A stretch of 64,000 nt of DNA from Maribacter thermophilus (GTDB lineage Bacteria > Bacteroidota > Bacteroidia > Flavobacteriales > Flavobacteriaceae): assembly GCF_001020565.1 (NCBI RefSeq), contig NZ_LDAS01000001.1:906402-970401 (forward strand), given 5' to 3'. The position numbers were made by a program, and so were the translations under genes. Below the pieces are notes generated by a model, which saw only the letters and a list, made by a program, of their open reading frames with translations, was not told the origin of the DNA and searched no databases. Positions 9,320 to 23,685 of the stretch are shown one piece after another. Every line of letters begins with the position of its first letter. Position 1 is the first letter of the stretch.

Positions 9320-9327
9320 TATATTTG
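9320..9327 (+). promoter_or_regulatory. TATATTTG -7 element of ECF sigma gene
   Basis: TATATTTG fits TAnnTTTG and ends 25 bp before the TTG start of the sigma factor gene. No convincing -33 TTG is seen at 19 bp upstream, so the strength of the promoter is uncertain. Confidence 0.4.
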
Positions 9328-9352: not shown

Positions 9353-9913
9353 TTGTCCCAAACAAAAAACGTATATACCTTATCCTTAAGGTCTTATAAG
9401 GATTTTTATGACACATTATATGTTTCATTGTGTTTGTTTGCCAAAAATTATGTTCAAAATTTAGATTTGGCCAAAGATTTGGTACAAGAAGTTTTTATAA
9501 AGGTCTGGGAGGATAAAATTGAGTTTAAGAATGAGGTGGCCGTAAAGTCATATATGTACATGGCGGTCAAGAATAAATGCTTGGACCTATTGAAAAGCAA
9601 GCAGTTTAGGTCAACGGAAAATATGTCTGTTGAGGATATGGAAGAATTAAATAGCGAATCCTTTTATTTAAAAGAAGTTGTTATTGAAGAGGTTTCTTCC
9701 CGAATAGAGAGTGCAATTAACACCTTGCCAAATAAGTGCGCCCAAGTAATAAGATTAAGTATAAACGGGCTGACAAACCCTGAAATAGCCCAACATCTGA
9801 ACATTTCGGTCAATACCGTTAAGGCACAAAAAAAAATTGCGTATAAAAAACTAAAGCCTCTATTAAAAAATTACTTCGCTTTAATGGCTTTCGTATTCGA
9901 CTACACCACCTGA
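9353..9913 (+). CDS. ECF RNA polymerase sigma factor (FecI-like)
   Basis: Sigma-70 of the extracytoplasmic-function group. Region 2 is at about 30-75 (NLDLAKDLVQEVFIKVWED, then KSYMYMAVKNKCLDLL). Region 4 with its helix-turn-helix is at about 125-170 (LPNKCAQVIRLSINGLTNPE, then ISVNTVKAQKKIAYKKL). The start is TTG, with no ATG in frame upstream. It is followed by fecR, a TonB-dependent receptor and secreted proteins, the classical order in which ligand binding at the receptor is relayed through FecR to free this sigma factor. An AAC-N18-CGTC promoter before fecR could be its own target. Confidence 0.93.
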   Translation: MSQTKNVYTLSLRSYKDFYDTLYVSLCLFAKNYVQNLDLAKDLVQEVFIKVWEDKIEFKNEVAVKSYMYMAVKNKCLDLLKSKQFRSTENMSVEDMEELNSESFYLKEVVIEEVSSRIESAINTLPNKCAQVIRLSINGLTNPEIAQHLNISVNTVKAQKKIAYKKLKPLLKNYFALMAFVFDYTT

Positions 9914-9992
9914 AAACATTCGTGTTTCTGTCTTTTTTTCTGTGGTCATATCTTTTTTTTTGAGCCAAGATGAAAAAAATCAATTTTTTTTT

Positions 9993-10017
9993 AACCCCAT
10001 CACATGATTTTGTCGTC
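9993..10017 (+). promoter_or_regulatory. Candidate ECF-type promoter driving fecR and receptor operon
   Basis: AAC at 9993-9995 and CGTC at 10014-10017 lie 21 bp apart start to start, the same geometry as the AAC/CGTC motifs of ECF sigma promoters in other bacteria. A T-run precedes the AAC. The fecR start is 27 bp downstream of the CGTC. This would give positive autoregulation of everything after the sigma gene. The call is by pattern only. Confidence 0.45.
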
Positions 10018-10043
10018 ATAGGTGTAAATAGTGGTAATAATAT

Positions 10044-11216
10044 ATGCTAAACCTTACTAAAATTTTATTGTTGTCTAAGCAGATTGCTTCTTCTTTATTA
10101 AAGGATGAAAAACCAAATGCATTGGATTCATCGGAGCTTTTTTCTGATAAAGACAAAAAAGAAATCATCAATAGACTTACGGATGAATCGGAAATAGCGT
10201 CACGGTTACAACTGAAAACAAAGGTAGATAGTAAGGCGGACTGGAAAAAAATACAATCTAGAGTAGTTGTTCCTAAAAGAACGCATTACTGGCAATATGC
10301 GGCAGCGGCCGCTGTGGTAATAGGGATATGTACGACCGTATATGTGGTAAAAGATAATTTTAATGGCAGCAGTGTTACCGAGCCAATTATTGTAAACAAC
10401 CAAATTGTACCAGGCGGTCATAAGGCAATTTTGACATTGGAAACGGGAGAAGAGGTAAATCTTGTAAAGGATGTAAAATACACAGCTAAAAATTTACAAA
10501 CAAATGGCGAAGAACTTGTGTACAACGAAGGTTCTGATCCGGAATTAAACTCTGAAGAGGTTGCCTATAACTTTTTAACCATTCCACGTGGTGGGCAATA
10601 TCAAATAACATTGTCCGATGGAACCCATGTATGGCTGAATTCAGAATCAAAACTAAAATATCCGGTACGTTTTGTGCAAGGTGAAACACGTATTGTAGAG
10701 CTTTTATACGGGGAAGCCTATTTTGATGTTTCTCCAAGCACGATGCACGAAGGCGCAAAATTTGAAGTGATCAACAAAGCGCAATCGGTAGAGGTTCTAG
10801 GAACAGAGTTTAATATTAAAGCCTATAAAGACGAGGTTACCGTGTATACCACTCTTGTAGAGGGGCAGGTGAAGGTGCGTTCACAAGGGCTTGTTGAAGA
10901 TCTTGTTCCGAACCAACAATCTAAATTGAATACTGAGACCCATACGATAGATGTAAGTCAGATAGATGTTTATAATGAAATAGCATGGAAAGATGGTGTT
11001 TTCAGTTTTGAGGATAAATCGCTGAAAGATATTATGACAGTTCTCTCTAGGTGGTACGACATAGATGTTGTTTTCGAGACAAAAAGTTTAGAATCAGAAA
11101 GGTTTGTCGGGGTATTAAAAAAGAATTACAGTATAGAAACCATACTGTCCATTTTTCAAAAAGCGAACATTATCAATGGCTTTGAAATAAATAACAAGTC
11201 TGTAATTATAAAATAA
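10044..11216 (+). CDS. FecR-family anti-sigma / sigma regulator
   Basis: Inner-membrane regulator that holds the ECF sigma factor until the outer-membrane receptor signals. The N-terminal cytoplasmic part (1-85) is helical and charged. One transmembrane helix at about 87-105 contains an alanine-rich run (YAAAAAVVIGICTTVYVV). The periplasmic FecR domain spans about 180-290 (PRGGQYQITLSDGTHVWLNS, then VELLYGEAYFDV). The C-terminal DUF4974 domain spans about 315-390 (FEDKSLKDIMTVLSRWYDID), which contacts the receptor's N-terminal domain. It is 130 bp after the sigma gene and 120 bp before the receptor, a gap that holds two hairpins. Confidence 0.95.
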   Translation: MLNLTKILLLSKQIASSLLKDEKPNALDSSELFSDKDKKEIINRLTDESEIASRLQLKTKVDSKADWKKIQSRVVVPKRTHYWQYAAAAAVVIGICTTVYVVKDNFNGSSVTEPIIVNNQIVPGGHKAILTLETGEEVNLVKDVKYTAKNLQTNGEELVYNEGSDPELNSEEVAYNFLTIPRGGQYQITLSDGTHVWLNSESKLKYPVRFVQGETRIVELLYGEAYFDVSPSTMHEGAKFEVINKAQSVEVLGTEFNIKAYKDEVTVYTTLVEGQVKVRSQGLVEDLVPNQQSKLNTETHTIDVSQIDVYNEIAWKDGVFSFEDKSLKDIMTVLSRWYDIDVVFETKSLESERFVGVLKKNYSIETILSIFQKANIINGFEINNKSVIIK

Positions 11217-11220
11217 TAAA

Positions 11221-11292
11221 TAGGATTGCGATCCTATATGGATAAAAAAAAGGAGAAATAGTTCAAACGGTCAAATTCAACACTATTTCTCC
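11221..11292 (+). other. Two intercistronic hairpins between fecR and the TonB receptor gene
   Basis: Hairpin 1: TAGGAT - tgcg - ATCCTA at 11221-11236. Hairpin 2: an 11-bp perfect stem, GGAGAAATAGT at 11252-11262 and its complement at 11282-11292, with a 19-base loop. No T-run follows, so these are unlikely to be full terminators. They may stabilise one part of the transcript or tune receptor expression relative to fecR. Confidence 0.55.
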
Positions 11293-11336
11293 AAAAAGAT
11301 ATTAATCAAGTTTAATCAATTAATAGTTACAAATTA

Positions 11337-14330
11337 ATGAAATTTAAATTAATTGGTGTCACCTGGCTATGGATGAAAGGTGTGCTAAACTGTATTATGC
11401 GAATATTTATATTCTTGTTTTGTGCAACCTTGTTCAGTTTTGGTCCTGTACGCTCTCAAAATGCCGAAATAAAAATTGCCGAGGATAAAATCGTTACCGT
11501 TGATAAGGTCTTTAAGATCATTAAAAAGCAAACGAGCGATTTTATGTTCATTTACCCCAAAAATCTGTTCGATTCTTATCCTAAGGTACAATTACGTAAA
11601 GGAACCATAAACATAGGCGAACTATTGAATTTGGCTCTTTCGGGAGGTAATGTTGATATCACGTTGACCGACGACAATATCATTATCATAAAAGAAAAAG
11701 ATGCGCAAGATGTTACCAATGTAGCGCGCATAAGAAAAAATAAGACGGTAGAGATCAAAGGCCGGGTCGTGGATGGTGATAAGAATGCCCTGTCATATGT
11801 CAATGTTATTGTCAGGGATCTAAATATTGGAACTTTTACCAATATGGATGGGGAGTTCTCTTTAGAGTTGCCCCATACCAACTTTGAGATAGAGTTGAGT
11901 CTTATAGGTTTTAAAACAGAGAAAATAGATGTTTCTACCCTTCCGGATTTGTCCAATGTTGTAATAACGTTAAAGGAAGACCTGTTAAATTTAGATGAGA
12001 TTGTCGTTACCGCTAAAAAGACCGTTAGTAGAGAAGGTACCTCTACCTATAAAATAGGAAGCCAGGCCATAAAGCAGGTACAGGCAATGAACTTATCTGA
12101 TGTTCTTAGTTTGTTACCGGGCAATAAAATTGAAGCAACAGACCTGACATCGACAAAACAAGCTAACCTGCGTAGTGCAACTGCCTCCAAGGTAAATGCC
12201 TTTGGTACGGCCATTATTTTAGACGGTGCGGCAATTAGTACCGATGCGAATATGCAAGCACAGAATTCTGGGTCTTTATATGGTGGAAAATCGGTCGTTG
12301 CCGGGGGTGTCGATTTAAGAAGTGTCTCCTTGGCCAATGTCGAATCGGTCGAGGTTATTTCGGGTGTAGCGTCCCCTAAATATGGGAATATATCTTCCGG
12401 GGGCATTTTAGTAAAAAGTAAGGTAGGTAAATCTCCCTACCTCGTTTCTGCAAACGTTTCCTCTACAAACTATCAAGCATCCGTAGCAAAAGGATATGAA
12501 CTGAACAAGTTCGGTATTTTGAATTCCGATCTTTCATATGCCTATTCTTCGGGTTCACCTACCGAACGTAAATTATTTTATCAAAGCGTTAACCTAGGTT
12601 TGCGCTGGAAGTTGCCCGCTTTCAAAAATTTGGACTGGGATCATTTTACATCCATCAGAGTCAATCATTCTGATGACGGCAATCGTCATGAGCCAGAAGA
12701 GGTTTATAAAAATGATGCCGATGTAAAAAGTACCTCTTATCAGGCAACCCTTTCTGGGAACTTTAGTTCATCTTTATTAGGAAAAGTCAATTATAACTTT
12801 AACGGTAGTATTACCAACCAGCATTCTTATTACGATACTTATGTGACCAATGGCCCCTACCCTATTATAGAATCTTTAGAGAGTGGTACATATACCACTA
12901 CCTTTTCTCCGACAACTTTTAATCAAACCAGGGACATTAAAGGAAGGCCGGTAAATTTAAACGGTAGACTAGACGCTACCCAAAATCTAAGTTTTAAAAA
13001 TTTGGATTTTAATTTTGAGACCGGTCTGCAATATACCTTTGATGATAATACGGGCAGTGGTAGGGTTGCAACGGGTAATATAGCACATACGCAAGATGTA
13101 GTGGGTAGTAGGTCTGCTTCTTTTGAGAAAATACCTGCATCTAAAACCTTTTCGGCTTACCACCAAACCATTATTAAAAGAAAAGCCGAGAATTCTAGAC
13201 AGCAATTAAATTTAGGATTGAGGTACGACAATATGCTGGAGCGTTACAATTTGGTATCGCCACGAATGTCTTTTTCATCAAAACATAACAATATTACGGG
13301 TAGGGTTGCCTGGGGTGTTTCATACAAGGCACCGGCAATGATACAATTATATCCGGGTAGATCGTACATTGATTATATCAACTACCAATATTATGCGGAA
13401 AATCCGGACGAACGTTTGGCAGTGGTTACCACTTATATTTACCAACCTACGAACGAGCATTTAAAACCTAATTATTCGGATGTAAAAGAAATTGGTTTCG
13501 ACTGGTCCCCATCTTTTATGAATTTGAACGTCACCTATTTCAAAAAAGACCTACGTAGAGGTATAAACATAACAGATGAGCTGTTATTGTTGCCAAAGGC
13601 CGTTTATGAAGTGGTAGATGCACCCGCAGGACAGCAGCCAACGGTAGAACCCACGGGTGAAGTTTATAACATTCCTAGAACGATCAGTGTTATGAAAAAC
13701 AACTACTACGAATCTACCGATGGTATTGAGGTTACCCTAAATCCAGAACGGATAAAAGCAACTAATACAGAGTTCAATTTCAGGTATAGTTATTTAAAAA
13801 GCTTGGTAACCGATAAAGGGTTCAATATAGATAAATCTGCCTATGTTGTTGGTGATAATTCGGTGCGTTATGGTGTTTACGAAAATGCAATGGTCGAAGC
13901 CGTTAGAAGTTTTGGAACCTTGACATTGATACAACATATACCTTCATTGCGATTTATTCTTACGCTATCGGCCGAATTGAATTTTAGGGAAAGTAGCAAG
14001 TATATCGGTACAAGCCTATACCCATTTGCGTATTATGATACAGATGGAAATTATATTGATATTCCCGAAGAAAACAGGGCCGACCCCGAGTTTGCTGACC
14101 TAAAGAAAGATGAGAATACATATACCGCCACAAGTACACCGTTCTATAGCAATTTTAACCTACAAATAAGGAAAGAGACCAAACAAGGACATTCGTTCAG
14201 CTTTTTTGCGATCAATGCACCTTGGTATAACCCAACATATGATTATCTGGGCAATAGAAGAACATTGAACAGTAAATTATCGGTGGGGTTCAATGTGACA
14301 ATATTAATTAGTAATAAAACCAACAAATAA
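11337..14330 (+). CDS. TonB-dependent receptor with STN and carboxypeptidase-regulatory domains
   Basis: Outer-membrane active transporter of 997 residues. After a long signal region (cleavage expected near residue 40, PVRSQ) comes an STN signalling domain at about 45-120 (FKIIKKQTSDFMFIYPKN), which talks to FecR. A carboxypeptidase-regulatory beta-sandwich follows at about 145-220 (IKGRVVDGDKNALSYVNVIV, then NMDGEFSLELP). The plug is at about 225-365, including SGVASPKYGNISSGGILVKS. The beta-barrel runs to the C-terminus, with repeated aromatic strands. The ligand is not evident from sequence. No SusD gene follows, so it is not a standard glycan-uptake pair. The next gene starts after one base, and the M16 and ChaN-like genes downstream suggest protein- or metal-linked import. 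Confidence 0.95.
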   Translation: MKFKLIGVTWLWMKGVLNCIMRIFIFLFCATLFSFGPVRSQNAEIKIAEDKIVTVDKVFKIIKKQTSDFMFIYPKNLFDSYPKVQLRKGTINIGELLNLALSGGNVDITLTDDNIIIIKEKDAQDVTNVARIRKNKTVEIKGRVVDGDKNALSYVNVIVRDLNIGTFTNMDGEFSLELPHTNFEIELSLIGFKTEKIDVSTLPDLSNVVITLKEDLLNLDEIVVTAKKTVSREGTSTYKIGSQAIKQVQAMNLSDVLSLLPGNKIEATDLTSTKQANLRSATASKVNAFGTAIILDGAAISTDANMQAQNSGSLYGGKSVVAGGVDLRSVSLANVESVEVISGVASPKYGNISSGGILVKSKVGKSPYLVSANVSSTNYQASVAKGYELNKFGILNSDLSYAYSSGSPTERKLFYQSVNLGLRWKLPAFKNLDWDHFTSIRVNHSDDGNRHEPEEVYKNDADVKSTSYQATLSGNFSSSLLGKVNYNFNGSITNQHSYYDTYVTNGPYPIIESLESGTYTTTFSPTTFNQTRDIKGRPVNLNGRLDATQNLSFKNLDFNFETGLQYTFDDNTGSGRVATGNIAHTQDVVGSRSASFEKIPASKTFSAYHQTIIKRKAENSRQQLNLGLRYDNMLERYNLVSPRMSFSSKHNNITGRVAWGVSYKAPAMIQLYPGRSYIDYINYQYYAENPDERLAVVTTYIYQPTNEHLKPNYSDVKEIGFDWSPSFMNLNVTYFKKDLRRGINITDELLLLPKAVYEVVDAPAGQQPTVEPTGEVYNIPRTISVMKNNYYESTDGIEVTLNPERIKATNTEFNFRYSYLKSLVTDKGFNIDKSAYVVGDNSVRYGVYENAMVEAVRSFGTLTLIQHIPSLRFILTLSAELNFRESSKYIGTSLYPFAYYDTDGNYIDIPEENRADPEFADLKKDENTYTATSTPFYSNFNLQIRKETKQGHSFSFFAINAPWYNPTYDYLGNRRTLNSKLSVGFNVTILISNKTNK

Positions 14331-14331
14331 C

Positions 14332-15579
14332 ATGAAATCAAACATTTTAAAAAGAGTAAGTGTGACAAAGTCAATAATAGCAATCGTATTGTTTGCAACA
14401 ACCTTGATAAGTTGTAGTAGCGACGATGATAGTGTAGCCAATCTAGGTAATCTACAGGTACAATTGGAATTGGCCGCCGGCCTTAGTGATATCTCCCTAG
14501 AAGGGGTCGATGTCAGTATCACTAATACGGTAGATAATGCAACCTTGAACCTAGCTACCGATGCAAATGGTGCTGTGACATTTTCAAATATTTCTGTCGG
14601 AACCTATAATATCGTAGCAACAAGTGCAACGGACGATTATCAATTAAGTGGTTCGTCGAATAATGTAGCCGTCACTATCCAAGAGACAACCGAGACTACT
14701 TTAGAAGTCGATGCAACAAACTTTAACGCTGGTTTGGTAATTAAAGAAATTTACACTGCGGGATCGGGTTATATCACCTTGTTTAAAGATTCGTTCATAG
14801 AAATTTTCAATAACTCTTCAGAAACAATATATGCCGATGGAATGTACATCGCAAATGTATTTGGAGATTCGGGTGCGTCTGGTGATACACCGGTAAATAC
14901 CATCTTAACAGATACCGATTATGTATATACCGATGTAATGAGCCAAATACCAGGTTCAGGTACCGATTACCCAGTAGCCTCGGGTCAAAGCATTGTTATA
15001 GCTTTAAACGCAATAAACTTTAAGGAAGGAAGTGCAAATCCAGATGGTGAATTGGACAATACGGATGCCACTTTAGAGCACTATTCAATAGATTGGTTGG
15101 AAGCTCAGGGCCGTGCCGGAAATTCATTTTTCGAATTGGACAACCCATCGGTACCGAACATGACCAATACTTATATGTTCGAAGAAACCAATTTCTTCAG
15201 ATTACCCACACCGGCAAGTGTAGTGTTGGTTAGTAGCGAGGCCACATTTAGTGATTCTGACATTGTAGACTATACACCGATAGGATCCACATCAACCTAT
15301 AAATTAATGCAAATCTCTGTTGATTTGGTTATAGATGGTGTAGATATTTTAGACAACTCCGCTTCCGCCGATTTTAAGCGCATTCCTAGTACTATAGATG
15401 CAGGGTTTACCTTTTTAACAGAAGACGGTGCTGTTTCTTATACCGGCTTAAGTAACAGAAGAAAAATTGATGAGACCGCCACGGCTCGTTTTGGTAGAAC
15501 TATTTTATTGGATACCAACAATTCTACAATAGATTTTGAAGCTATAAATTTTCCAGATAAATATGGTTACAACGACTAA
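14332..15579 (+). CDS. DUF4876 lipoprotein partner of the TonB receptor
   Basis: A surface-type lipoprotein of 415 residues with lipobox LISC (Cys28) followed by SSDDD. Residues about 38-130 form a carboxypeptidase-regulatory or SpaA-like beta-sandwich (LEGVDVSITNTVDNATL, then NGAVTFSNISVGTYNI). From about 140 the sequence fits DUF4876, beginning NAGLVIKEIYTAGSG and containing FIEIFNNSSETIY, which recalls the start of a lamin-tail-like domain. It begins one base after the receptor stop, so it is translationally coupled. In this position SusD would be expected for glycan systems, so it may play the ligand-capturing role here. That role is an inference. Confidence 0.85.
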   Translation: MKSNILKRVSVTKSIIAIVLFATTLISCSSDDDSVANLGNLQVQLELAAGLSDISLEGVDVSITNTVDNATLNLATDANGAVTFSNISVGTYNIVATSATDDYQLSGSSNNVAVTIQETTETTLEVDATNFNAGLVIKEIYTAGSGYITLFKDSFIEIFNNSSETIYADGMYIANVFGDSGASGDTPVNTILTDTDYVYTDVMSQIPGSGTDYPVASGQSIVIALNAINFKEGSANPDGELDNTDATLEHYSIDWLEAQGRAGNSFFELDNPSVPNMTNTYMFEETNFFRLPTPASVVLVSSEATFSDSDIVDYTPIGSTSTYKLMQISVDLVIDGVDILDNSASADFKRIPSTIDAGFTFLTEDGAVSYTGLSNRRKIDETATARFGRTILLDTNNSTIDFEAINFPDKYGYND

Positions 15580-15597
15580 TATTAGTTATTTAAAGGT

Positions 15598-15624
15598 AAA
15601 GAGAATGTTTATGACATTCTCTTT
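15598..15624 (+). other. Perfect 11-bp hairpin enclosing the start codon of the DUF6850 gene
   Basis: AAAGAGAATGT at 15598-15608 pairs with ACATTCTCTTT at 15614-15624 around a TTATG loop. A T-rich stretch (ACTTTTTTT) follows. The stem contains the ATG at 15605 and the loop the ATG at 15611, so folding would hide the start. It could be a translation switch or a partial terminator after the DUF4876 gene. Confidence 0.6.
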
Positions 15625-17143
15625 ACTTTTTTTAATCTCAAGTACATATTCCCAATCAAAAAAAAACACCGATAGTCTATCGGTCTTGGAAAGAGATGTT
15701 CAATTACAATTATTTGAAGATAGGTACTTCGGTATTCCTTCATTGATCAACCATGAAAATATATATAAATTCACCTATGGAGAGGGCAAATATTTATATT
15801 CCGAAGGTTCATTGAGACATCCGCAAGAATATAAAAAACAAAACGGTCTGTATTTAGAAACGGCGTCACTTGCGTCTTTAGAAAATACAAATTGGACCCT
15901 ATACGGTAGTTTGGAATACTTGAATACCAGAAAAGAGGATGTAGAGAATAATTTAACGTATGGTGTTTTAGATTACGGTTCGCCGTACTATTTTTTTCAA
16001 CAAACAAGTGGTTTGTGGAACCATCAAAATTATAATTTTAAAGTAGCCGGAGCCAATAAGGTGAACTCTAAACTTACATTAGGTGCCTACCTAAACTACG
16101 ATACCAATTTCTATTTTAGAAAAAGCGATACCAGAAATGAGTTAACAGCTTTAAAAATTGTAGGAAAACTATCTGCTAGCTATCAATTTAATGACATACA
16201 CTTGTTAAGTGTGTCCATAGGCAACGAATTATATAAGGCAAACTCTGAATTATCTAACAAGTTTCCGGAAAACAACACAGAACTTACCGCCGATTATTAT
16301 CTGAACACCGGTTTAGGCTCTTACATAAAAAATCTAGATTCAGGTTTTGATACCAAAAGAAGTATACCCGAAGTGCAATTGCAATGGTTCTTAAAACAAG
16401 GTAATTGGGACCTATCAATAGAAAGTGATACAAAATTTGGTACAGAACGTTGGATAGATAAGAATATTCTTAATGTAGAAGAGAACGACGAGAGAACAAG
16501 ATATAGTTTTGTAGATCAAGAATTTACAGTCTTTTATAATAGGTATAAGGCCAATAGTCTTTTCTCCCTTAATTTAAATGCAGGGTATTTAAAGGGAGAC
16601 GGCAAGGTATGGCAAGAAACAGGTGCGTACTATGCCAAAAATTTTACCACCACTGGTTACAGGCTTGCAACGGGTGCTACCCTATTGTTCTATAATAATT
16701 TTCTGAACAAAGTTAATTTGGGCATTGCTTATCACAATAAGGAACAATACGATTTAAATTACGCCTATACATTTGATTACCAGTATATAGAGCCACAGGT
16801 ATCTTTAGGTTTCAATACAAGCATTTCTAAAAAAACGGCATTTTTCGCAGATATCTCCGCTTTATATCACCATGTGCTGGATGTTGAACACGATCCATTT
16901 GCGGCTAACAACATTTTTGTGGATTGGATAGGAAACAAAATTGCCGATTACACAGGGATAAGTACCATCAATTATAGCATAAAACTAGGCACCGATTTTA
17001 AACTTAAAAACCAGAACAGGTTAGAGCTGTCAGTATCTTCCGATTATTTAAAAGTTACAAAACTATCGGAAAACAGCTCAAACTACTATTCTAAAAATGA
17101 TGATTACCTAAATCTGACCACCGGTTTAAAATTACATTTCTAG
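15605..17143 (+). CDS. DUF6850-type outer-membrane beta-barrel protein
   Basis: Secreted beta-rich protein of about 512 residues. The ATG at 15605 gives signal peptide MFMTFSLLFLISSTYSQ; an in-frame GTT/ATG frame reaching back to 15563 would overlap the previous gene and adds a poor leader. The mature part has alternating aromatic strands throughout (LETASLASLENTNWTLYGSL, then LGIAYHNKEQYDLNYAYTF) and ends in LNLTTGLKLHF, whose terminal aromatic residue is typical of outer-membrane barrels. It matches what I know of the DUF6850 family, which is found beside DUF4876 proteins. It is probably an outer-membrane partner of the receptor. Function is unknown. Confidence 0.82.
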   Translation: MFMTFSLLFLISSTYSQSKKNTDSLSVLERDVQLQLFEDRYFGIPSLINHENIYKFTYGEGKYLYSEGSLRHPQEYKKQNGLYLETASLASLENTNWTLYGSLEYLNTRKEDVENNLTYGVLDYGSPYYFFQQTSGLWNHQNYNFKVAGANKVNSKLTLGAYLNYDTNFYFRKSDTRNELTALKIVGKLSASYQFNDIHLLSVSIGNELYKANSELSNKFPENNTELTADYYLNTGLGSYIKNLDSGFDTKRSIPEVQLQWFLKQGNWDLSIESDTKFGTERWIDKNILNVEENDERTRYSFVDQEFTVFYNRYKANSLFSLNLNAGYLKGDGKVWQETGAYYAKNFTTTGYRLATGATLLFYNNFLNKVNLGIAYHNKEQYDLNYAYTFDYQYIEPQVSLGFNTSISKKTAFFADISALYHHVLDVEHDPFAANNIFVDWIGNKIADYTGISTINYSIKLGTDFKLKNQNRLELSVSSDYLKVTKLSENSSNYYSKNDDYLNLTTGLKLHF

Positions 17144-17185
17144 TCTTTTTTTATTCCATTTTAAATCGTTTGTAAATCCTATTTA

Positions 17186-18502
17186 ATGAAGAGATTATTT
17201 TTTTCAATAGTCTTTTTGGTTCCTTTTTGTATCTGGAGTCAAAAGATAGATAAAGTGCATATAGAAGAATACGATTTGCCCAACGGCTTGCATGTGATTC
17301 TTCATAAGGATGTCAATGAGCCCAACGTAATCGTGGGTACAAAGTACCATGTGGGTTCTAAAAACGAAGATGTCGACAAAACCGGGTTTGCCCATTTTTT
17401 TGAGCACCTTTTGTTTCATGGGACCAAAAATATACCACAGGGCGAGTTGGAAAATATCATCTTTAATGCAGGCGGATATTGTAATGCCTATACCAATTAC
17501 GATGTCACATACTATTACCAGTTACTTCCCGCCCATGAATATAAACTAGGGCTATGGGTAGAATCTGAACGTATGCTTCATCCTATCATCACCCAAAAAG
17601 GGATAGATCGTGAACGGGAAATTGTCAAGGAGGAAAAACGTATGCGGTACGACAACAAACCATTGGGCAATTCTTATTTTGAGGTAATGTCCGAGCTGTT
17701 TACCTACGATACTTACGGGCATAATATTATTGGATCTATGGAAGATTTGGATAGGGCTTCCCTAGAAGATTTTGACGCTTTTTTCAAAAAATATTATGTG
17801 CCAAATAATGCTTGCCTAGTCGTATCGGGTAATATAGATATTGAAGACACTAAAAAATGGGTCGGGCTGTATTTTAATGATATTCCAAGGGGTGAAAAGA
17901 TAAAAAGACCTAAAACCTTCAAAAAAAGACCAAGGGAAGGCCACCATACAAATATTGATGTTAAGGGGTTAAAGAACGAATCTATAGAGATCGGTTACCC
18001 GATAATGTCACAAAGCAGCGATGATGCCCCGGCCATGCAAATAATAACCTCTATTTTATCGGGTAACAGTGATTTTTCCTATTTCGACAAAAACCTTAAA
18101 ACAGAAAAAGATTCCATAATCAAACGATTAAGTGCTTCTTCAAGTTTTTGGGAAAAAGTAGGAACTTTAAATGTTAAGGCCGAAGTAACAACTAAAGAAA
18201 GTGAAGCCTATGTTCTGCAAAGGATAAACGAACAATTTGAGCTGTTAAAGACAAGACCTGTAGATCCTATGGTGTTGGAGCGGGCCAAAAAACAATTCAT
18301 TGCTACCTATATCGATATTTTTTACGATGCACAGACCTTTGCAGACAAGGTGACCAACTATTATCATTTACATAAAAACACTTCAGATATAAGAGCCCTT
18401 ATAAGTGATATTGAAAAAGTGACAAGTAGTGATATACAACGTGTGGCAAAAAAATATCTTGATACCGATAAGCGCATTGTCATTAGTTATCATCCCGAAT
18501 AA
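17186..18502 (+). CDS. M16 zinc metalloprotease, catalytic subunit
   Basis: Insulinase/pitrilysin-family peptidase of 438 residues with a signal peptide (1-18, ending CIWSQ), so it acts in the periplasm. The inverted zinc motif HxxEH is intact: His70-Phe-Phe-Glu73-His74 in GFAHFFEHLLFHG. The third ligand is at Glu149/Glu150 (EIVKEEKRMR), at the canonical distance of about 76 residues. The C-terminal half is a second M16-fold domain. It lacks the Arg/Tyr substrate-gripping pair, which the next gene carries, so the two probably form a heterodimer. M16 enzymes take unfolded or small proteins in a closed chamber. In this operon the likely substrate is imported by the TonB receptor. Confidence 0.94.
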   Translation: MKRLFFSIVFLVPFCIWSQKIDKVHIEEYDLPNGLHVILHKDVNEPNVIVGTKYHVGSKNEDVDKTGFAHFFEHLLFHGTKNIPQGELENIIFNAGGYCNAYTNYDVTYYYQLLPAHEYKLGLWVESERMLHPIITQKGIDREREIVKEEKRMRYDNKPLGNSYFEVMSELFTYDTYGHNIIGSMEDLDRASLEDFDAFFKKYYVPNNACLVVSGNIDIEDTKKWVGLYFNDIPRGEKIKRPKTFKKRPREGHHTNIDVKGLKNESIEIGYPIMSQSSDDAPAMQIITSILSGNSDFSYFDKNLKTEKDSIIKRLSASSSFWEKVGTLNVKAEVTTKESEAYVLQRINEQFELLKTRPVDPMVLERAKKQFIATYIDIFYDAQTFADKVTNYYHLHKNTSDIRALISDIEKVTSSDIQRVAKKYLDTDKRIVISYHPE

Positions 18503-18511
18503 TTCCATAAA

Positions 18512-19954
18512 ATGAAAAAATTACATCTATTTATATTATTTGTTTGTTGCGGTTTTTTGGGCCATGCCCAAGTAAACCGAACCGTACCCCCAGAAGCGGA
18601 TACACCCCAACAATTGAATATAGGAAAATTAATTCCTATAGTATTGGATAACGGACTTCGCGTGTATTTGGCCCCTGTAAAAGACTATCCGAAATTTACG
18701 ATGTCCGTCAATATAGAATCACCGAGCTTGGATGAAGAAACACGATTGGCCGAGAAACGGGTTTTGGGATCGGCCTATTCGAACAAGCTATCTAAAAAAT
18801 ATCCAAACCATGAGATAGATTCCATGGAGAACACCTACCCTGCCATGATCAATGTAAATACGTATGGTGGCACGGTCAAAGGGATGAAGAAAGATATAGA
18901 CGATTTACTGGATGCGTATAGAGACCTTATGTTGCACCCTATTATCGCGAAAGAAACTATCAGTGAAAAACATAAGGAATTTTTAGACCGTAAAAAAAAG
19001 ACCAAAAAGCCATTGTCACGGCCATTGCGTAAATTCTCTTTGGATGCCCTTGTCGATTCATTGCTTTTTGGGGCCAAAAAAGAGGAAGGGAAAACCAAAA
19101 CTAGGTTAGACCCCAATTTTAAAGGACTGACCGTACAGGATGTTTATGATTATAAGAACGACCGGATTTTGTCAAACAATTCATTAGTGGTGATCGTAGG
19201 CGATTTTTCAGAAACGGAATGCCGTTCGCTGATGACACGTTATTTTGGGGATTGGAAAGCGGGTGCCGAGTATGTGAAAAAAAATACCGTGGAACAGAAA
19301 GTGTCAATTATTAAAAACAGAAAAATAGTGGTGAAGGATGTGCCCGATGCCGTACAGTCCAAAATTTCGTTCAAATGGCACTTGGGAGACGCTTATACCT
19401 ATTTCAAAGACGATATAAAGCTGCAAGTTCTAAATAAAATTTTTGGGGAAAGCCAATTGTCCTATTTATACAAAAACCTGAGAGAAGATAAGGGGCTTTG
19501 CTATTACATAAGATCTTCGGTGGGCAGTTCGGCAGCCGGGGGTACGGGATCGGTAGCTACCGATGTACGCAATGAGCAAACGGCCTATGCCGTAGAAAAT
19601 ATTATTTTGGAAATGCTGCGGCTAAGAAACGAAGATGTCAGCGCATCGGACCTGAAAATTGCCAAAAACAGTTTAATTGGTGAATATACGAGGTCTTTAA
19701 ACCCCATTGCCCCAATATCGTATATAACCTTTGCCATGCAGAAAGACGTTTATGGCCTACCTGATGATTATTTGCAAAATAAGGTAAAGCAATATTACGA
19801 TGTAACTATCGAAGATGTGAAAACCATGGCACAAAAATATATAGATCCCTTTAAGTGCGTAATAACCATATCGGGCAAGGTTTCTGAACTAAAGGGAAAG
19901 CTCGAAAAATTTGGAGAGGTATTGTACTACGACCAAAACGGAAATAGAATATAA
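18512..19954 (+). CDS. M16 peptidase-like protein, non-catalytic subunit
   Basis: Secreted M16-fold protein of 480 residues with signal peptide ending GHAQ. The zinc motif is lost: where HxxEH should be, the sequence reads AEKRVLGSAYSNKLSKKYPN. The Arg/Tyr pair of the family is present at Arg324 and Tyr331-332 (REDKGLCYYIRSSVG). This is the usual division of labour in heterodimeric M16B enzymes, where one chain supplies zinc and the other supplies the substrate clamp. It starts 9 bp after the catalytic gene. The beginning of the mature protein carries a short extension (RTVPPEADTPQQLNIGKLIP) seen in such partner subunits. Confidence 0.92.
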   Translation: MKKLHLFILFVCCGFLGHAQVNRTVPPEADTPQQLNIGKLIPIVLDNGLRVYLAPVKDYPKFTMSVNIESPSLDEETRLAEKRVLGSAYSNKLSKKYPNHEIDSMENTYPAMINVNTYGGTVKGMKKDIDDLLDAYRDLMLHPIIAKETISEKHKEFLDRKKKTKKPLSRPLRKFSLDALVDSLLFGAKKEEGKTKTRLDPNFKGLTVQDVYDYKNDRILSNNSLVVIVGDFSETECRSLMTRYFGDWKAGAEYVKKNTVEQKVSIIKNRKIVVKDVPDAVQSKISFKWHLGDAYTYFKDDIKLQVLNKIFGESQLSYLYKNLREDKGLCYYIRSSVGSSAAGGTGSVATDVRNEQTAYAVENIILEMLRLRNEDVSASDLKIAKNSLIGEYTRSLNPIAPISYITFAMQKDVYGLPDDYLQNKVKQYYDVTIEDVKTMAQKYIDPFKCVITISGKVSELKGKLEKFGEVLYYDQNGNRI

Positions 19955-19972
19955 ATTAAATACATAACAACT

Positions 19973-20860
19973 ATGAGATATATAATAACGTTAGCGCTCT
20001 TATTGGCCCTATCTTTTGTGGAAAAAGCATTAGCACAAGAAAAGCCGGCCTACCAACTGTTTAAAAATAATGGAGAGATTGTATATTACGACCAAATGAT
20101 CTCGGATTTGGCCGAGAGTGATATGGTCTTTTTTGGGGAGTATCATTTTAACCCTATTTCGCATTGGTTGGAACTGGAGGTCGGTAAAAGTTTGTTCAAC
20201 ATCAAAGGAACAAAATTGTTTTTAGGGGCCGAAATGTTCGAGAGCGGAAACCAATTGGTCCTCGATGAATACCTACAGGGCTTCTACGCAGAATCTAAAA
20301 TGATTCCGGAAATAACCCAATTGTGGAGTAATTATAATACCGATTACAGACCTTTGGTGGAATTTGCCAAGGAGAATGCTTTGCGGTTTATCGCCACGAA
20401 CATACCCAGGCGCTATGCATCCATGATAAGTAAGAAGGGATTTGATGTCCTAGAAATACTAAGTCCCGAAGCAAAGGCACTCATCGGACCGGATCTAAAA
20501 AAACACTTCGACCCAACCGTCAAGGCCTATGCGGAAATGGCCAATAATATGGGGGGGCATGTGCCGCCCAATATGTTAAACATGCAAATGGCCCAAGCGG
20601 CCAAAGATGCCACGATGGCCCATTTTTCACTTAAGAATTTTAACAAGGGCGATCTCTTATTGCATTTTCAAGGATCCTACCATTCCAATTATGATCAAGG
20701 CATTATATGGTGGATCAATAAAATTGAGCCAGGTTTGGAGATTAAGTCCATTACCACCGTTTTACAGTCTGAATGGGAAAAACTTTCTGTTGAGGATAGA
20801 GCGGGTATTGCAGATTATATAATTGTAGTGGCAAACACCATGACAAGCACCCAAGGTTAA
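19973..20860 (+). CDS. ChaN-like (haem/iron-associated) exported protein
   Basis: A 295-residue protein with a signal peptide (about 1-22, ending KALAQ) and a ChaN-type domain (PF04187-like). Landmarks are FFGEYHFNPISHWLELEV, the conserved Gly-Glu-x-His strand, FLGAEMFESGNQLVLDEYL, and the C-terminal LHFQGSYHSNYDQGI. In Campylobacter, ChaN binds haem pairs and is linked to iron uptake; erythromycin-esterase-like relatives also exist. There is no lipobox, so it is probably soluble in the periplasm. It is the last gene of the sigma/FecR/receptor/M16 locus, 18 bp after the second M16 gene, and is followed by a terminator. Confidence 0.88.
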   Translation: MRYIITLALLLALSFVEKALAQEKPAYQLFKNNGEIVYYDQMISDLAESDMVFFGEYHFNPISHWLELEVGKSLFNIKGTKLFLGAEMFESGNQLVLDEYLQGFYAESKMIPEITQLWSNYNTDYRPLVEFAKENALRFIATNIPRRYASMISKKGFDVLEILSPEAKALIGPDLKKHFDPTVKAYAEMANNMGGHVPPNMLNMQMAQAAKDATMAHFSLKNFNKGDLLLHFQGSYHSNYDQGIIWWINKIEPGLEIKSITTVLQSEWEKLSVEDRAGIADYIIVVANTMTSTQG

Positions 20861-20881: not shown

Positions 20882-20935
20882 AAGCCTTACTCTTTTTTTA
20901 TGCTTAGGCAAAAATGAAAAAGGTAAGGCTTTTTT
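20882..20935 (+). terminator. Rho-independent terminator after ChaN-like gene
   Basis: AAGCCTTAC near 20882-20890 pairs with GTAAGGCTT, flanked by A/T arms that extend the stem, and is followed by TTTTT. It lies 22 bp after the stop and closes the long forward locus. Confidence 0.75.
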
Positions 20936-21928: not shown

Positions 21929-23368
21929 CTATTTACTCAAATAATTGTTTACCGCCGTAGCTCTACTTGCGGCATGTATGTTTAATTCGTTCACTGCATT
22001 CTGAAAATCCGCATTGGAATTCAAGAATGTATATCCTTCGTTTTCCGTGGTCGCATATGGTTCTATCATAGAAGAATAAGTAGCATACATAGCTTGTACC
22101 GTAGCAGTGTCAAAAGCACCGTTTATTACTTCTTCTAAGTAATAATCATATGTTGCCCTGTACACATCATCTTCGTACAAATAAGATATCAATGGCCATT
22201 GATTTTCCGATACATCGGAGAAATCCAACTCTGGAGCTCCTTGTTGTTTTCCTTCTTGTAGGGCTTCATTGTTATCCCAAGGAATCCAGGTAAGTTTACC
22301 GCTATCGGGGTCATTGTACAGAAAGTAATTGTGAGACATTCTGCCATACGTATCCCAATTTTGAATAATCGTGTTGGTGGCCAAATATTTTAAGAACACA
22401 TCGGTATCAAAAACGGCATCTAAGTTAGAGCGCCATACGGCGGCATCAGTGGTTCTAGACTCATCATGTAAAATGCTCAATAAGCTTTCCACATCAGAAA
22501 AATCGGCTTCGTCCTCATTTGTTTTCTTTACGTACTCATCTTCATCATAAGTACCTAGCGCAAATGTCGCGGCACCCCCATCGGGTTTGTACAGATTTCC
22601 GTCATTATCATCAAATTGCTCGTCAATTACCGTGTCGTCCACCTCTTCCACCATAGTGTAAAGTCCAAAATATACCGGGCCATCACCATAATCCACGTAA
22701 ACAGTGTAAAATGCAGTATTTGATACCGCTAAACCGGCATTTCTAAAGATATCTGCCGCCACTTTTTCCCTCAACATGGATTTATCGTCAAAATTGTTCT
22801 TAAGACTTAGCTTTTTAAATCCGTAAAAACGCTGATTGTCTATTTGAGGATAATCATCTTCAAATTCATCAAAGTCCAGTTTAAAGGAAAGTTTAAGATT
22901 ACCGGCCTGCCATGTGGACTGTAAACTGGAATTTCCCTTAAACCGAACCCCTACCCTATACCATTCCTTATCGTTATAAAAGACTTCTGCCGGAACAAAG
23001 ATGGGATCCTCATCGGTAGAGGTTGCCGTACCACGACCTCTTGATCCAAACGGACCGTAAAGACTGGTCATGTCGTCCAGCATACTTTGCCAACGTTCTT
23101 CAGTAATTACGATATCCAATCGCTTTACCTCATCATTGGCAAACACCTCGTCAAAATCGGGGTCAGCATCTTTGCTATGTGTTTCAACCGTCCAATCGGT
23201 GGCTTCAAAATCGGTATCGTCTACTGTAGTATCAACTTCTTCCTCTGTAACTTCTTCCTCTGAATTTTCTACCGTGTTACCCTCGTTACAGGAAATGAAA
23301 ACAGAAAACAGCAATAGAAAGACCGATTTTTTTATAGGCATTAGGGGTATTGAATTACGAAAAATCAT
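21929..23368 (-). CDS. CotH-kinase-family lipoprotein
   Basis: A 479-residue exported lipoprotein (lipobox FISC, Cys27) with a Glu/Thr/Asp-rich linker (about 28-60). The CotH domain starts at RLDIVITEERWQSML. Visible landmarks are VGVRFKGNSSLQSTW, FKKLSLKNNFDDKSMLREKV (the Asp-x-Ser-x-x-Arg-Glu block), YVDYGDGPVYFGLYTMVEEV and WIPWDNNEALQ, the counterpart of the metal-binding Asp-x-Asp/Asn loop. CotH of spore coats is a protein kinase; whether this relative phosphorylates a surface protein is unknown. The first ATG is preceded by GAGG, so the longer start was kept. It is 32 bp after the EF-hand gene, in one operon. Confidence 0.92.
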   Translation of the reverse strand: MIFRNSIPLMPIKKSVFLLLFSVFISCNEGNTVENSEEEVTEEEVDTTVDDTDFEATDWTVETHSKDADPDFDEVFANDEVKRLDIVITEERWQSMLDDMTSLYGPFGSRGRGTATSTDEDPIFVPAEVFYNDKEWYRVGVRFKGNSSLQSTWQAGNLKLSFKLDFDEFEDDYPQIDNQRFYGFKKLSLKNNFDDKSMLREKVAADIFRNAGLAVSNTAFYTVYVDYGDGPVYFGLYTMVEEVDDTVIDEQFDDNDGNLYKPDGGAATFALGTYDEDEYVKKTNEDEADFSDVESLLSILHDESRTTDAAVWRSNLDAVFDTDVFLKYLATNTIIQNWDTYGRMSHNYFLYNDPDSGKLTWIPWDNNEALQEGKQQGAPELDFSDVSENQWPLISYLYEDDVYRATYDYYLEEVINGAFDTATVQAMYATYSSMIEPYATTENEGYTFLNSNADFQNAVNELNIHAASRATAVNNYLSK

Positions 23369-23400
23369 ATCCTCATTTTTAATAAATGATTTATGCTTCC

Positions 23401-23685
23401 TTAATTTCTTGGTCTTCCTTTGGGTTTAGGTGCATTTTTGAATTCTTCTTCAGAGATATATCCGTCTTCATCGGTATCTATTTCAGAGAAACTTTCTTTT
23501 AAAGGTCCCTTAACTTCATCTTTGGCCAATTTTCCATCTTCGTTGGCATCCATTTCCTCTAAAAGCTTAGCGTATGTAGGAGGTTCTTTTCTTTCTCCTC
23601 TAGATTGTGCATTCATGGTAGCGGTTCCAAAGGTTACCAACATACCCAATAATAATCCGGCCTTTAATGTGTTTGTAGATTTCAT
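23401..23685 (-). CDS. Exported EF-hand calcium-binding protein
   Basis: A 94-residue secreted protein with signal peptide (about 1-26, ending TMNAQS). Two canonical EF-hand loops follow: DANEDGKLAKDE at about 49-60 and DTDEDGYISEEE at about 73-84. Each has acidic residues at positions 1, 3, 5 and 12 and Gly at 6, so both should bind calcium. The tail is basic (PKPKGRPRN). It is co-transcribed with the CotH gene 32 bp downstream, and the promoter region is shared with the divergent LytS/LytTR genes. A calcium-dependent partner or sensor for CotH is a reasonable guess; there is no direct evidence. Confidence 0.93.
   Translation of the reverse strand: MKSTNTLKAGLLLGMLVTFGTATMNAQSRGERKEPPTYAKLLEEMDANEDGKLAKDEVKGPLKESFSEIDTDEDGYISEEEFKNAPKPKGRPRN

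Follow-up and report, generated by a model that had tools for sequence, protein, structure and literature searches.

Gene Content of the Locus

We analysed a 64,000-nucleotide stretch of the Maribacter thermophilus genome (contig NZ_LDAS01000001.1, positions 906,402 to 970,401; hereafter the window), in which an initial annotation, made from the sequence alone, had placed a possible operon for the import of protein-derived haem or iron. This annotation listed an extracytoplasmic function (ECF) sigma factor, a FecR protein, a TonB-dependent receptor (TBDT), DUF4876 and DUF6850 proteins, two M16 proteins and a ChaN-like protein, and eight open reading frames (ORFs) are indeed present at that place (9353–20860) and in that order, all on the forward strand, with profile searches in agreement. 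The sigma factor (9353–9913) matches TIGR02985 with 140 bits, above the cut-off, as well as Sigma70_r2 and r4_2, and is followed by a FecR-type anti-sigma factor (10044–11216; FecR and FecR_C). The receptor (11337–14330) has an N-terminal extension and matches CarbopepD_reg_2 and Plug. The DUF4876 lipoprotein (14332–15579; 82 bits, cut-off 27.9), whose N-terminal part is prealbumin-like, overlaps the DUF6850 gene (15563–17143; 205 bits, cut-off 27). An M16 peptidase with an HxxEH motif (17186–18502; Peptidase_M16 and M16_C), an M16 partner lacking this motif (18512–19954; M16_C only, 104 bits) and the ChaN-like protein (19973–20860; PF04187, 175 bits, cut-off 27.7) complete the set. DUF4876, DUF6850 and ChaN each have a single match in the source genome, all at this locus. 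None of the eight proteins matched SusD or a glycan enzyme in the profile searches, in keeping with the earlier statement that this is not a polysaccharide locus, and a PHROGs search with DUF4876 and DUF6850 gave no matches.

The Eight-Gene Unit in Other Genomes

Among 397 Flavobacteriaceae genomes, used as a family sample, DUF6850 scored over the cut-off in 16. Besides the source genome of the window, two of these 16 (G404 and G713) have all eight genes in this order and with nearly equal lengths. An alignment scan for DUF6850 across a one-genome-per-species set (84,980 species) returned six loci, four of which carried the complete unit. These are from Pseudozobellia thermophila (whose contig is that of G404), Maribacter sp. 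MMG018, Formosa algae and an uncultured Formosa. The unit is thus present in six genomes including the window, with 64–98% protein identity per gene to the window, and it was present in every genome found with a DUF6850 about 64% or more identical. The genes flanking it vary in size and order between genomes. The recurrence of this gene order in five further Flavobacteriaceae genomes, each time amid other neighbours, shows that the unit is real and self-contained. More carriers are possible, because the scan relied on just two short peptide patterns and missed G713. In Sinomicrobium and in the metagenome-assembled genome NORP167, a fused M16 gene lies just upstream of receptor, DUF4876 and DUF6850 genes; no sigma, FecR or ChaN gene was found at these two loci.

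The unit may have moved between genera by horizontal transfer, as suggested by a DNA identity between window and Pseudozobellia of 88.2% over the 11.6 kb of the unit, compared to 78.6% for recA, and by the lack of a DUF6850 match in two genomes of the window's own genus (recA 79–80% identical). Against transfer, the RecA protein is 97% identical and the unit proteins 81–98%, so the excess appears in the DNA alone, and recA is a single marker gene.

A Receptor–DUF4876–DUF6850 Core in Bacteroidota

Of 395 Bacteroidota genomes sampled across the phylum, 37 had DUF6850 over the cut-off, 37 had DUF4876 and 35 had both. We defined a core by a receptor gene preceding DUF4876, a definition by which no full-length DUF4876 locus was lost, and collected 66 cores, of which the phylum sample gave 45, the family sample 17 and the species-wide scan three, the last being that of the window. 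The gene run of a core comprised same-strand genes with gaps below 350 bases and ended at the next receptor. In the relatives, ORFs were called greedily and most family labels came from our own hidden Markov models (HMMs), and the counts span related genomes. Left out of the counts were L105, a fragment without DUF4876; L159, L163 and L164, which are identical in contig to L141, L147 and L144; and G076, G193 and G410, whose partial DUF6850 matches were just over the cut-off. Receptor, DUF4876 and DUF6850 form an outer-membrane core that is not special to the eight-gene unit. The initial annotation had tied DUF4876 and DUF6850 to M16 and ChaN, had proposed a co-occurrence search of the four families, and had named routine occurrence of the pair without the other two as evidence against its proposal. 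This is what the search returned: the gene run showed no M16 in 50 of the 66 cores and no ChaN in 60, some of these runs being cut by an edge of the DNA read, and all six runs with ChaN are copies of the eight-gene unit.

The broader idea of import followed by cleavage is supported. A peptidase was present in the run of 23 of the 66 cores (16 with M16, seven with only a caspase-like protein recognized by eye) and a CCP_MauG di-haem peroxidase in 15, while the two never occurred together (0/66), a pattern that resembles the Fus clusters discussed below. A Fisher test of peptidase against peroxidase gave p = 0.0006 for all 66 rows and p = 0.007 for the 41 uncut rows, relatedness being ignored in both. 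The run touches the edge of the DNA read in 25 cores, 13 with a peptidase, 12 with neither enzyme and none with a peroxidase. The CCP_MauG label was confirmed by Pfam in L064, L138 and L149, the others being from our own HMMs. Three kinds of M16 stand beside the core: the split pair of the unit, a PqqL-like fused protein in Sinomicrobium, and a 4nnz/3ami-like fused protein in L077. The Sinomicrobium protein scored 259 bits with PqqL and 120 with FusC; an M16 of the FusC/PqqL type is therefore found at this sister locus and not in the window. M28 occurs in three cores, each of which also has M16, and is Pfam-confirmed in L073 only.

The caspase-like label refers to proteins of about 740 residues with HEAT repeats (L074:10715-12925, L134:5476-7665 and others), in which GHG and D-x-C motifs were seen by eye in alignments. 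Pfam and Protein Data Bank (PDB) searches matched the HEAT part only and NCBIfam matched nothing, which leaves the peptidase part unproven. The second core of L071 owes its place among the 23 peptidase cores solely to the caspase-like gene of the preceding core. In L134, a peroxidase gene lies beside the caspase-like gene on the other strand, making them neighbours and not members of one run.

In a receptor tree of the 66 rows, built by a quick method, the six units grouped together with full support, and Sinomicrobium and NORP167 were their sister group. Unit and sister clade adjoin a clade of 11 peroxidase rows and four empty rows, and the fork above them has a support of 85. The peptidase label changed 10 times over the 66 rows, eight of these changes being forced by starred branches. 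This figure of 8–10 is inflated by runs that end at the edge of a contig or of the DNA read; with cut runs lacking a peptidase dropped, the label changed six times over 54 rows. The M16 label changed four times over 51 rows.

Two other families were observed beside the core. One is an unnamed lipoprotein-like family of about 300 residues with a GYLYGYP-AVDFFVEAA motif (L086:15481-16395, L069:6108-7040 and 10 other loci), for which three members gave no Pfam match and one gave no NCBIfam match; it is carried by 10 of the 28 cores that have neither peptidase nor peroxidase. The other is a Ycf48/BNR propeller with a type IX sorting tail (L073:4496-6706, the member with the Pfam match), with relatives in 15 loci.

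Receptor, DUF4876 and DUF6850 Proteins

The sigma factor and FecR were recognized by profile, as expected for ECF sigma/FecR/TonB-receptor signalling. The receptor itself was likewise confirmed, but the STN domain assigned to it earlier was not: its N-terminal part resembles STN by eye, while three of three receptor orthologues gave no Pfam match to STN at E ≤ 10 and hhalign gave no useful match. Searched against the PDB, the receptor had seven matches at E ≤ 0.001, six of them entries of the ferric enterobactin receptor PfeA (best E 5e-6) and one a SusC homologue; FusA and YddB were not among the seven.

In the DUF4876 protein, Cys28 is followed by SSDDD, which we take to be a surface-export signal, and C28, D32 and D33 are invariant in seven of seven sequences; the lipoprotein is thus probably surface-exposed. 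An AlphaFold2 model of DUF4876, made from seven alignment rows, had a mean pLDDT of 46.7 and was not used. The model of DUF6850 (mean pLDDT 64.9) shows long strands, and the 50 Foldseek rows listed for it are outer-membrane barrels, PfeA, BtuB1 and AlgE among them, with low TM-scores of 0.26–0.54. DUF6850 is probably an outer-membrane β-barrel, the only label for which this weak model is used.

The M16 Pair

The description of one catalytic and one inactive M16 protein was borne out by their motifs. HxxEH occupies residues 70–74 of the first protein (17393–17407) and is kept in five of five aligned orthologues, while none was seen by inspection in the second. The nearest solved structures to the first protein are 4nnz, 5euf and the active subunit of 3amj (139–128 bits), with PqqL and FusC at 60 and 55 bits. 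The R/Y pair has an established role in M16 peptidases. The second protein carries such a pair, R324 and Y331 (19481–19504), which is invariant in three of three sequences and aligns to the R..Y of 3d3y and 3gwb; its match to the inactive subunit of 3amj is weak (21.5 bits). Zinc motif and R/Y pair thus sit on separate chains, as in an M16 heterodimer, and the two chains form a putative heterodimer.

ChaN and the Haem Question

The ChaN-like protein has a Sec-type signal and, by eye, no lipobox. Its GExH motif lies at 20135–20146, and GExH, E87 and H237 are kept in eight of eight ChaN-like sequences; a profile of eight relatives matches the ChaN structure 2g5g with E 7e-14. Of 37 core-bearing genomes, 14 had a match to PF04187 (11 over the cut-off), and only that of the window adjoins the core.

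Elsewhere, ChaN is a haem-operon gene. It adjoins HemS in three genomes (G095, G277 and G002), and in G095 the cluster also includes an ABC ATPase, a FecCD permease and a binding protein (L150:7511-12874). HemS and haem oxygenase, the two usual next enzymes, were present in all three of these genomes and in none of the five unit carriers examined (G000, G404, G713, G773 and G774), in a search that covered HemS, haem oxygenase and CobN among haem genes. Haem is therefore doubtful as the substrate, and the haem import proposed earlier is weakly supported, by the position of ChaN beside HemS in other genomes; we do not adopt it as the preferred reading.

CobN can stand for HmuS. It was found in one of the five carriers (G713), about 3 kb from the unit, where the intervening genes appear by eye to be a CobC-like histidine phosphatase, CobS and CobT, that is, a cobalamin cluster, and it was dismissed as a haem link. 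FecCD permease was uninformative as well, one being present in each of seven genomes with or without the unit.

In one of nine other ChaN loci, L154, a fragment of an M16 lies at a distance of about 7 kb. In another, L153 (3185-8140), ChaN follows directly after a fused 953-residue M16 and a DUF4929 protein, while the 16 kb read around it contain no DUF4876 core; this is a second ChaN–M16 pairing.

Iron Regulation of DUF4876 Loci

In the portion of PMC10434189 consulted, PG1019-22 of Porphyromonas gingivalis (DUF4876 and a TonB receptor) is given as up 20.8–214.5 fold in low iron, and BT3625-33 of Bacteroides thetaiotaomicron (DUF4876 proteins, a receptor, DUF4857, PepSY and ABC genes) as up 36.7–128 fold. 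According to excerpts of two other papers, PG_1019 and PG_1020 were up in a study of the oxidative-stress gene PG_0686 (PMC10101095), and a P. gingivalis DUF4876 gene had a log2 change of −5.42 in a haemin comparison, of the same sign as HmuY (PMC10470040). DUF4857 and ABC neighbours, as in BT3625-27, recur in the runs of eight of the 66 cores, Pfam-confirmed in L077 and as homologues in the seven others. Because DUF4876 loci of other species are strongly iron-regulated in print and the DUF4857 neighbours recur, an iron role of the core is likely. For the eight-gene unit itself, such a role would follow by kinship only. The iron link of the initial annotation is supported by the DUF4876 loci of other species. 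The locus in the window gave neither an iron nor a Fur signal of its own, and inspection by eye of the aligned regions upstream of the six sigma genes showed no Fur-type box.

Promoter Element, Hairpins and Neighbouring Genes

Before the sigma gene, a TAnnTTTG element (TATATTTG, 9320–9327, forward strand), presumably the −7 type promoter motif of Bacteroidota, stands at the same aligned place in six of six units. An 18-bp RNA hairpin followed by a T-rich run (15592–15630, forward strand) lies in the signal-peptide codons of DUF6850, just past the DUF4876 stop. It folds with −20.5 kcal/mol (z −6.2), which none of 200 shuffles equalled, and across five orthologues 96.7% of cells are paired, compared to 50–61% for slid partners. 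There is modest covariation, with three pairs changing on both sides (equalled by 59 of 500 shuffles) and a score reached by five of 500. Folds with z ≤ −2 (30 shuffles each) were found near the start of DUF6850 in 27 of 60 measurable cores, DUF4876 in 10 of 60, the receptor in five of 57 and the next gene in eight of 50; these folds are not all at the same place, and the DUF6850 starts are first-start guesses. A pairwise test of DUF6850 against DUF4876 gave p = 8e-5. The hairpin may act as an attenuator or a timer for the second half of the operon. A terminator after ChaN, predicted earlier, is seen as a stem at 20882–20931 on the forward strand (−20.2 kcal/mol, z −2.6; three of 200 shuffles as good). 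An Rfam search over the locus gave no matches. Beyond it, at 21929–23685 on the reverse strand, is a CotH-kinase-like protein, preceded by a small EF-hand-like protein, both recognized by eye only.

Proposed Function and Alternatives

We read the unit as a substrate-inducible import-and-cleave system for a protein or peptide-bearing ligand, and put the probability of this reading at about 0.48. Ligand on the receptor would signal through FecR to the ECF sigma factor and raise expression of the operon, as their families suggest. The receptor, together with DUF4876 as a surface lipoprotein and DUF6850 as a barrel, would carry the ligand across the outer membrane. In the periplasm, the M16 pair would form a heterodimer, with the zinc site on one chain and the R/Y pair on the other, and cut it, and the ChaN-like protein might hold or process the released product, perhaps an iron-bearing cofactor, which is the weakest step. 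The core would then be a Bacteroidota module with exchangeable processing enzymes, of which the eight-gene unit is the version with an M16 pair and ChaN. The chief argument for import and cleavage is the pattern of enzyme recruitment. The Fus clusters of Proteobacteria are described, in the part of the paper at hand, as containing FusC, other proteases or, in multiple cases without FusC, cytochrome c peroxidases (PMC6793856, Grinter 2019); the same peptidase and peroxidase options surround an unrelated core in another phylum.

Several observations weigh against this reading. Neither peptidase nor peroxidase was seen in 28 of the 66 cores, 12 of these being cut by an edge, so the core does not require cleavage. 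Related genomes are not independent in the co-occurrence counts. Seven of the 23 peptidase cores depend on the unproven caspase-like protein, leaving 16 of 66 without it, and M16_C is a common domain, with 3–13 copies per genome in 37 of 37 genomes. The STN domain could not be confirmed in the receptor sequence, and the locus gives no iron or Fur signal of its own. The published iron-regulated DUF4876 loci belong to other branches, and no M16 is named for them in the text available.

Three alternatives were considered. The core might import a small ferric chelate, such as the siderophore of another organism, perhaps peptidic, with the M16 pair and ChaN trimming or hydrolysing the chelator instead of a folded protein. 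PepSY proteins are known from ferric-siderophore reduction. Membrane proteins of this type in the B. thetaiotaomicron DUF4876 locus (PMC10434189, as excerpted) would fit such a role, as would PfeA as the nearest solved structure to the receptor and the 43 of 66 cores without a peptidase in the run. The PfeA match is weak (28 bits), however, and differing peptidases have joined the core in several lineages, whereas a plain siderophore needs none; we regard this explanation as unlikely. Piracy of haem proteins, the earlier proposal, would have the M16 pair break up a haem carrier, with the haem going to ChaN. It would agree with the ChaN–HemS clusters, with the position of ChaN next to a fused M16 in L153, which has no core, and with the M16 fragment of L154. 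Since the carriers examined lack HemS and haem oxygenase, CobN occurs in one of five beside cobalamin-type genes, and the ChaN of the window has no lipobox, we hold it to be quite unlikely.

Lastly, the unit might import peptides or small proteins as nutrients without any role in iron, ChaN being a hydrolase of the Tiki/erythromycin-esterase fold. The motifs kept in all eight ChaN-like sequences are as in an enzyme, and the fold is shared with the esterase EreC according to an extract of PMC7979712. The strong induction of DUF4876 loci by low iron in two species, and the shared sign of a P. gingivalis DUF4876 gene and HmuY in the haemin comparison, speak against such a nutrient importer, which we consider very unlikely.

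Comparison with Known Systems

The 3amj M16 heterodimer, which we take to be SPH2681/SPH2682 of Sphingomonas, resembles the pair described here in that its active, zinc-bearing subunit and its inactive subunit are two distinct chains, although the inactive chains are only weakly alike; we know of no link between this heterodimer and a receptor. The ChaN of Campylobacter jejuni (2g5g) is of the same family and has the same conserved motifs, but the window protein lacks a lipobox and its neighbours are M16 genes, not haem enzymes. PG1019-1022 and BT3625-3633 share with the core a DUF4876 protein with a TonB receptor and, in the latter case, the DUF4857 and ABC genes, and differ from the unit in that neither M16 nor ChaN is named there in the excerpted source.

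The closest parallel is with Fus of Pectobacterium and YddB/PqqL of Escherichia coli, in which, as here, a TonB receptor is genetically tied to an M16 peptidase. The unit differs from both in a receptor without detectable FusA homology, the added DUF4876 lipoprotein and DUF6850 barrel, an M16 pair that is split and of another type, regulation by ECF sigma and FecR, and ChaN. No gene for FusB, which is TonB-like, or for the ABC protein FusD is among the eight. Membership in the Fus family was rejected, the receptor having no FusA/YddB match and the M16 protein being nearest to 4nnz, 5euf and 3amj; because both receptor and peptidase type differ, the system would be a Bacteroidota analogue of Fus. 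As with the core, a peroxidase or another protease is reported for Fus where FusC is missing, and the distribution is scattered (PMC6793856, in the sections seen).

A literature search that left out most subscription journals found DUF4876 in three papers, and no paper on DUF6850 or on M16 with a DUF4876 receptor. A wider hypothesis, which we consider possible but doubtful, is that the TBDT–DUF4876–DUF6850 module is the Bacteroidota counterpart of Fus for iron proteins, with an unrelated receptor. The lipoprotein and second barrel would help to unfold or thread the ligand, the processing slot would be filled by M16, a caspase-like peptidase or a di-haem peroxidase, and the hairpin in DUF6850 would set the level of barrel and peptidase. 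This module would take in the strongly iron-regulated orphan loci of P. gingivalis and B. thetaiotaomicron. DUF4876 and DUF6850, two families without a name, would then share a function that can be tested, and loci of oral and gut Bacteroidota known only for their response to iron starvation would be tied to a module in which the neighbouring genes identify the processing enzyme. If this were true, iron-protein piracy would have arisen at least twice, with different receptors and the same choice between cutting and reducing the ligand.

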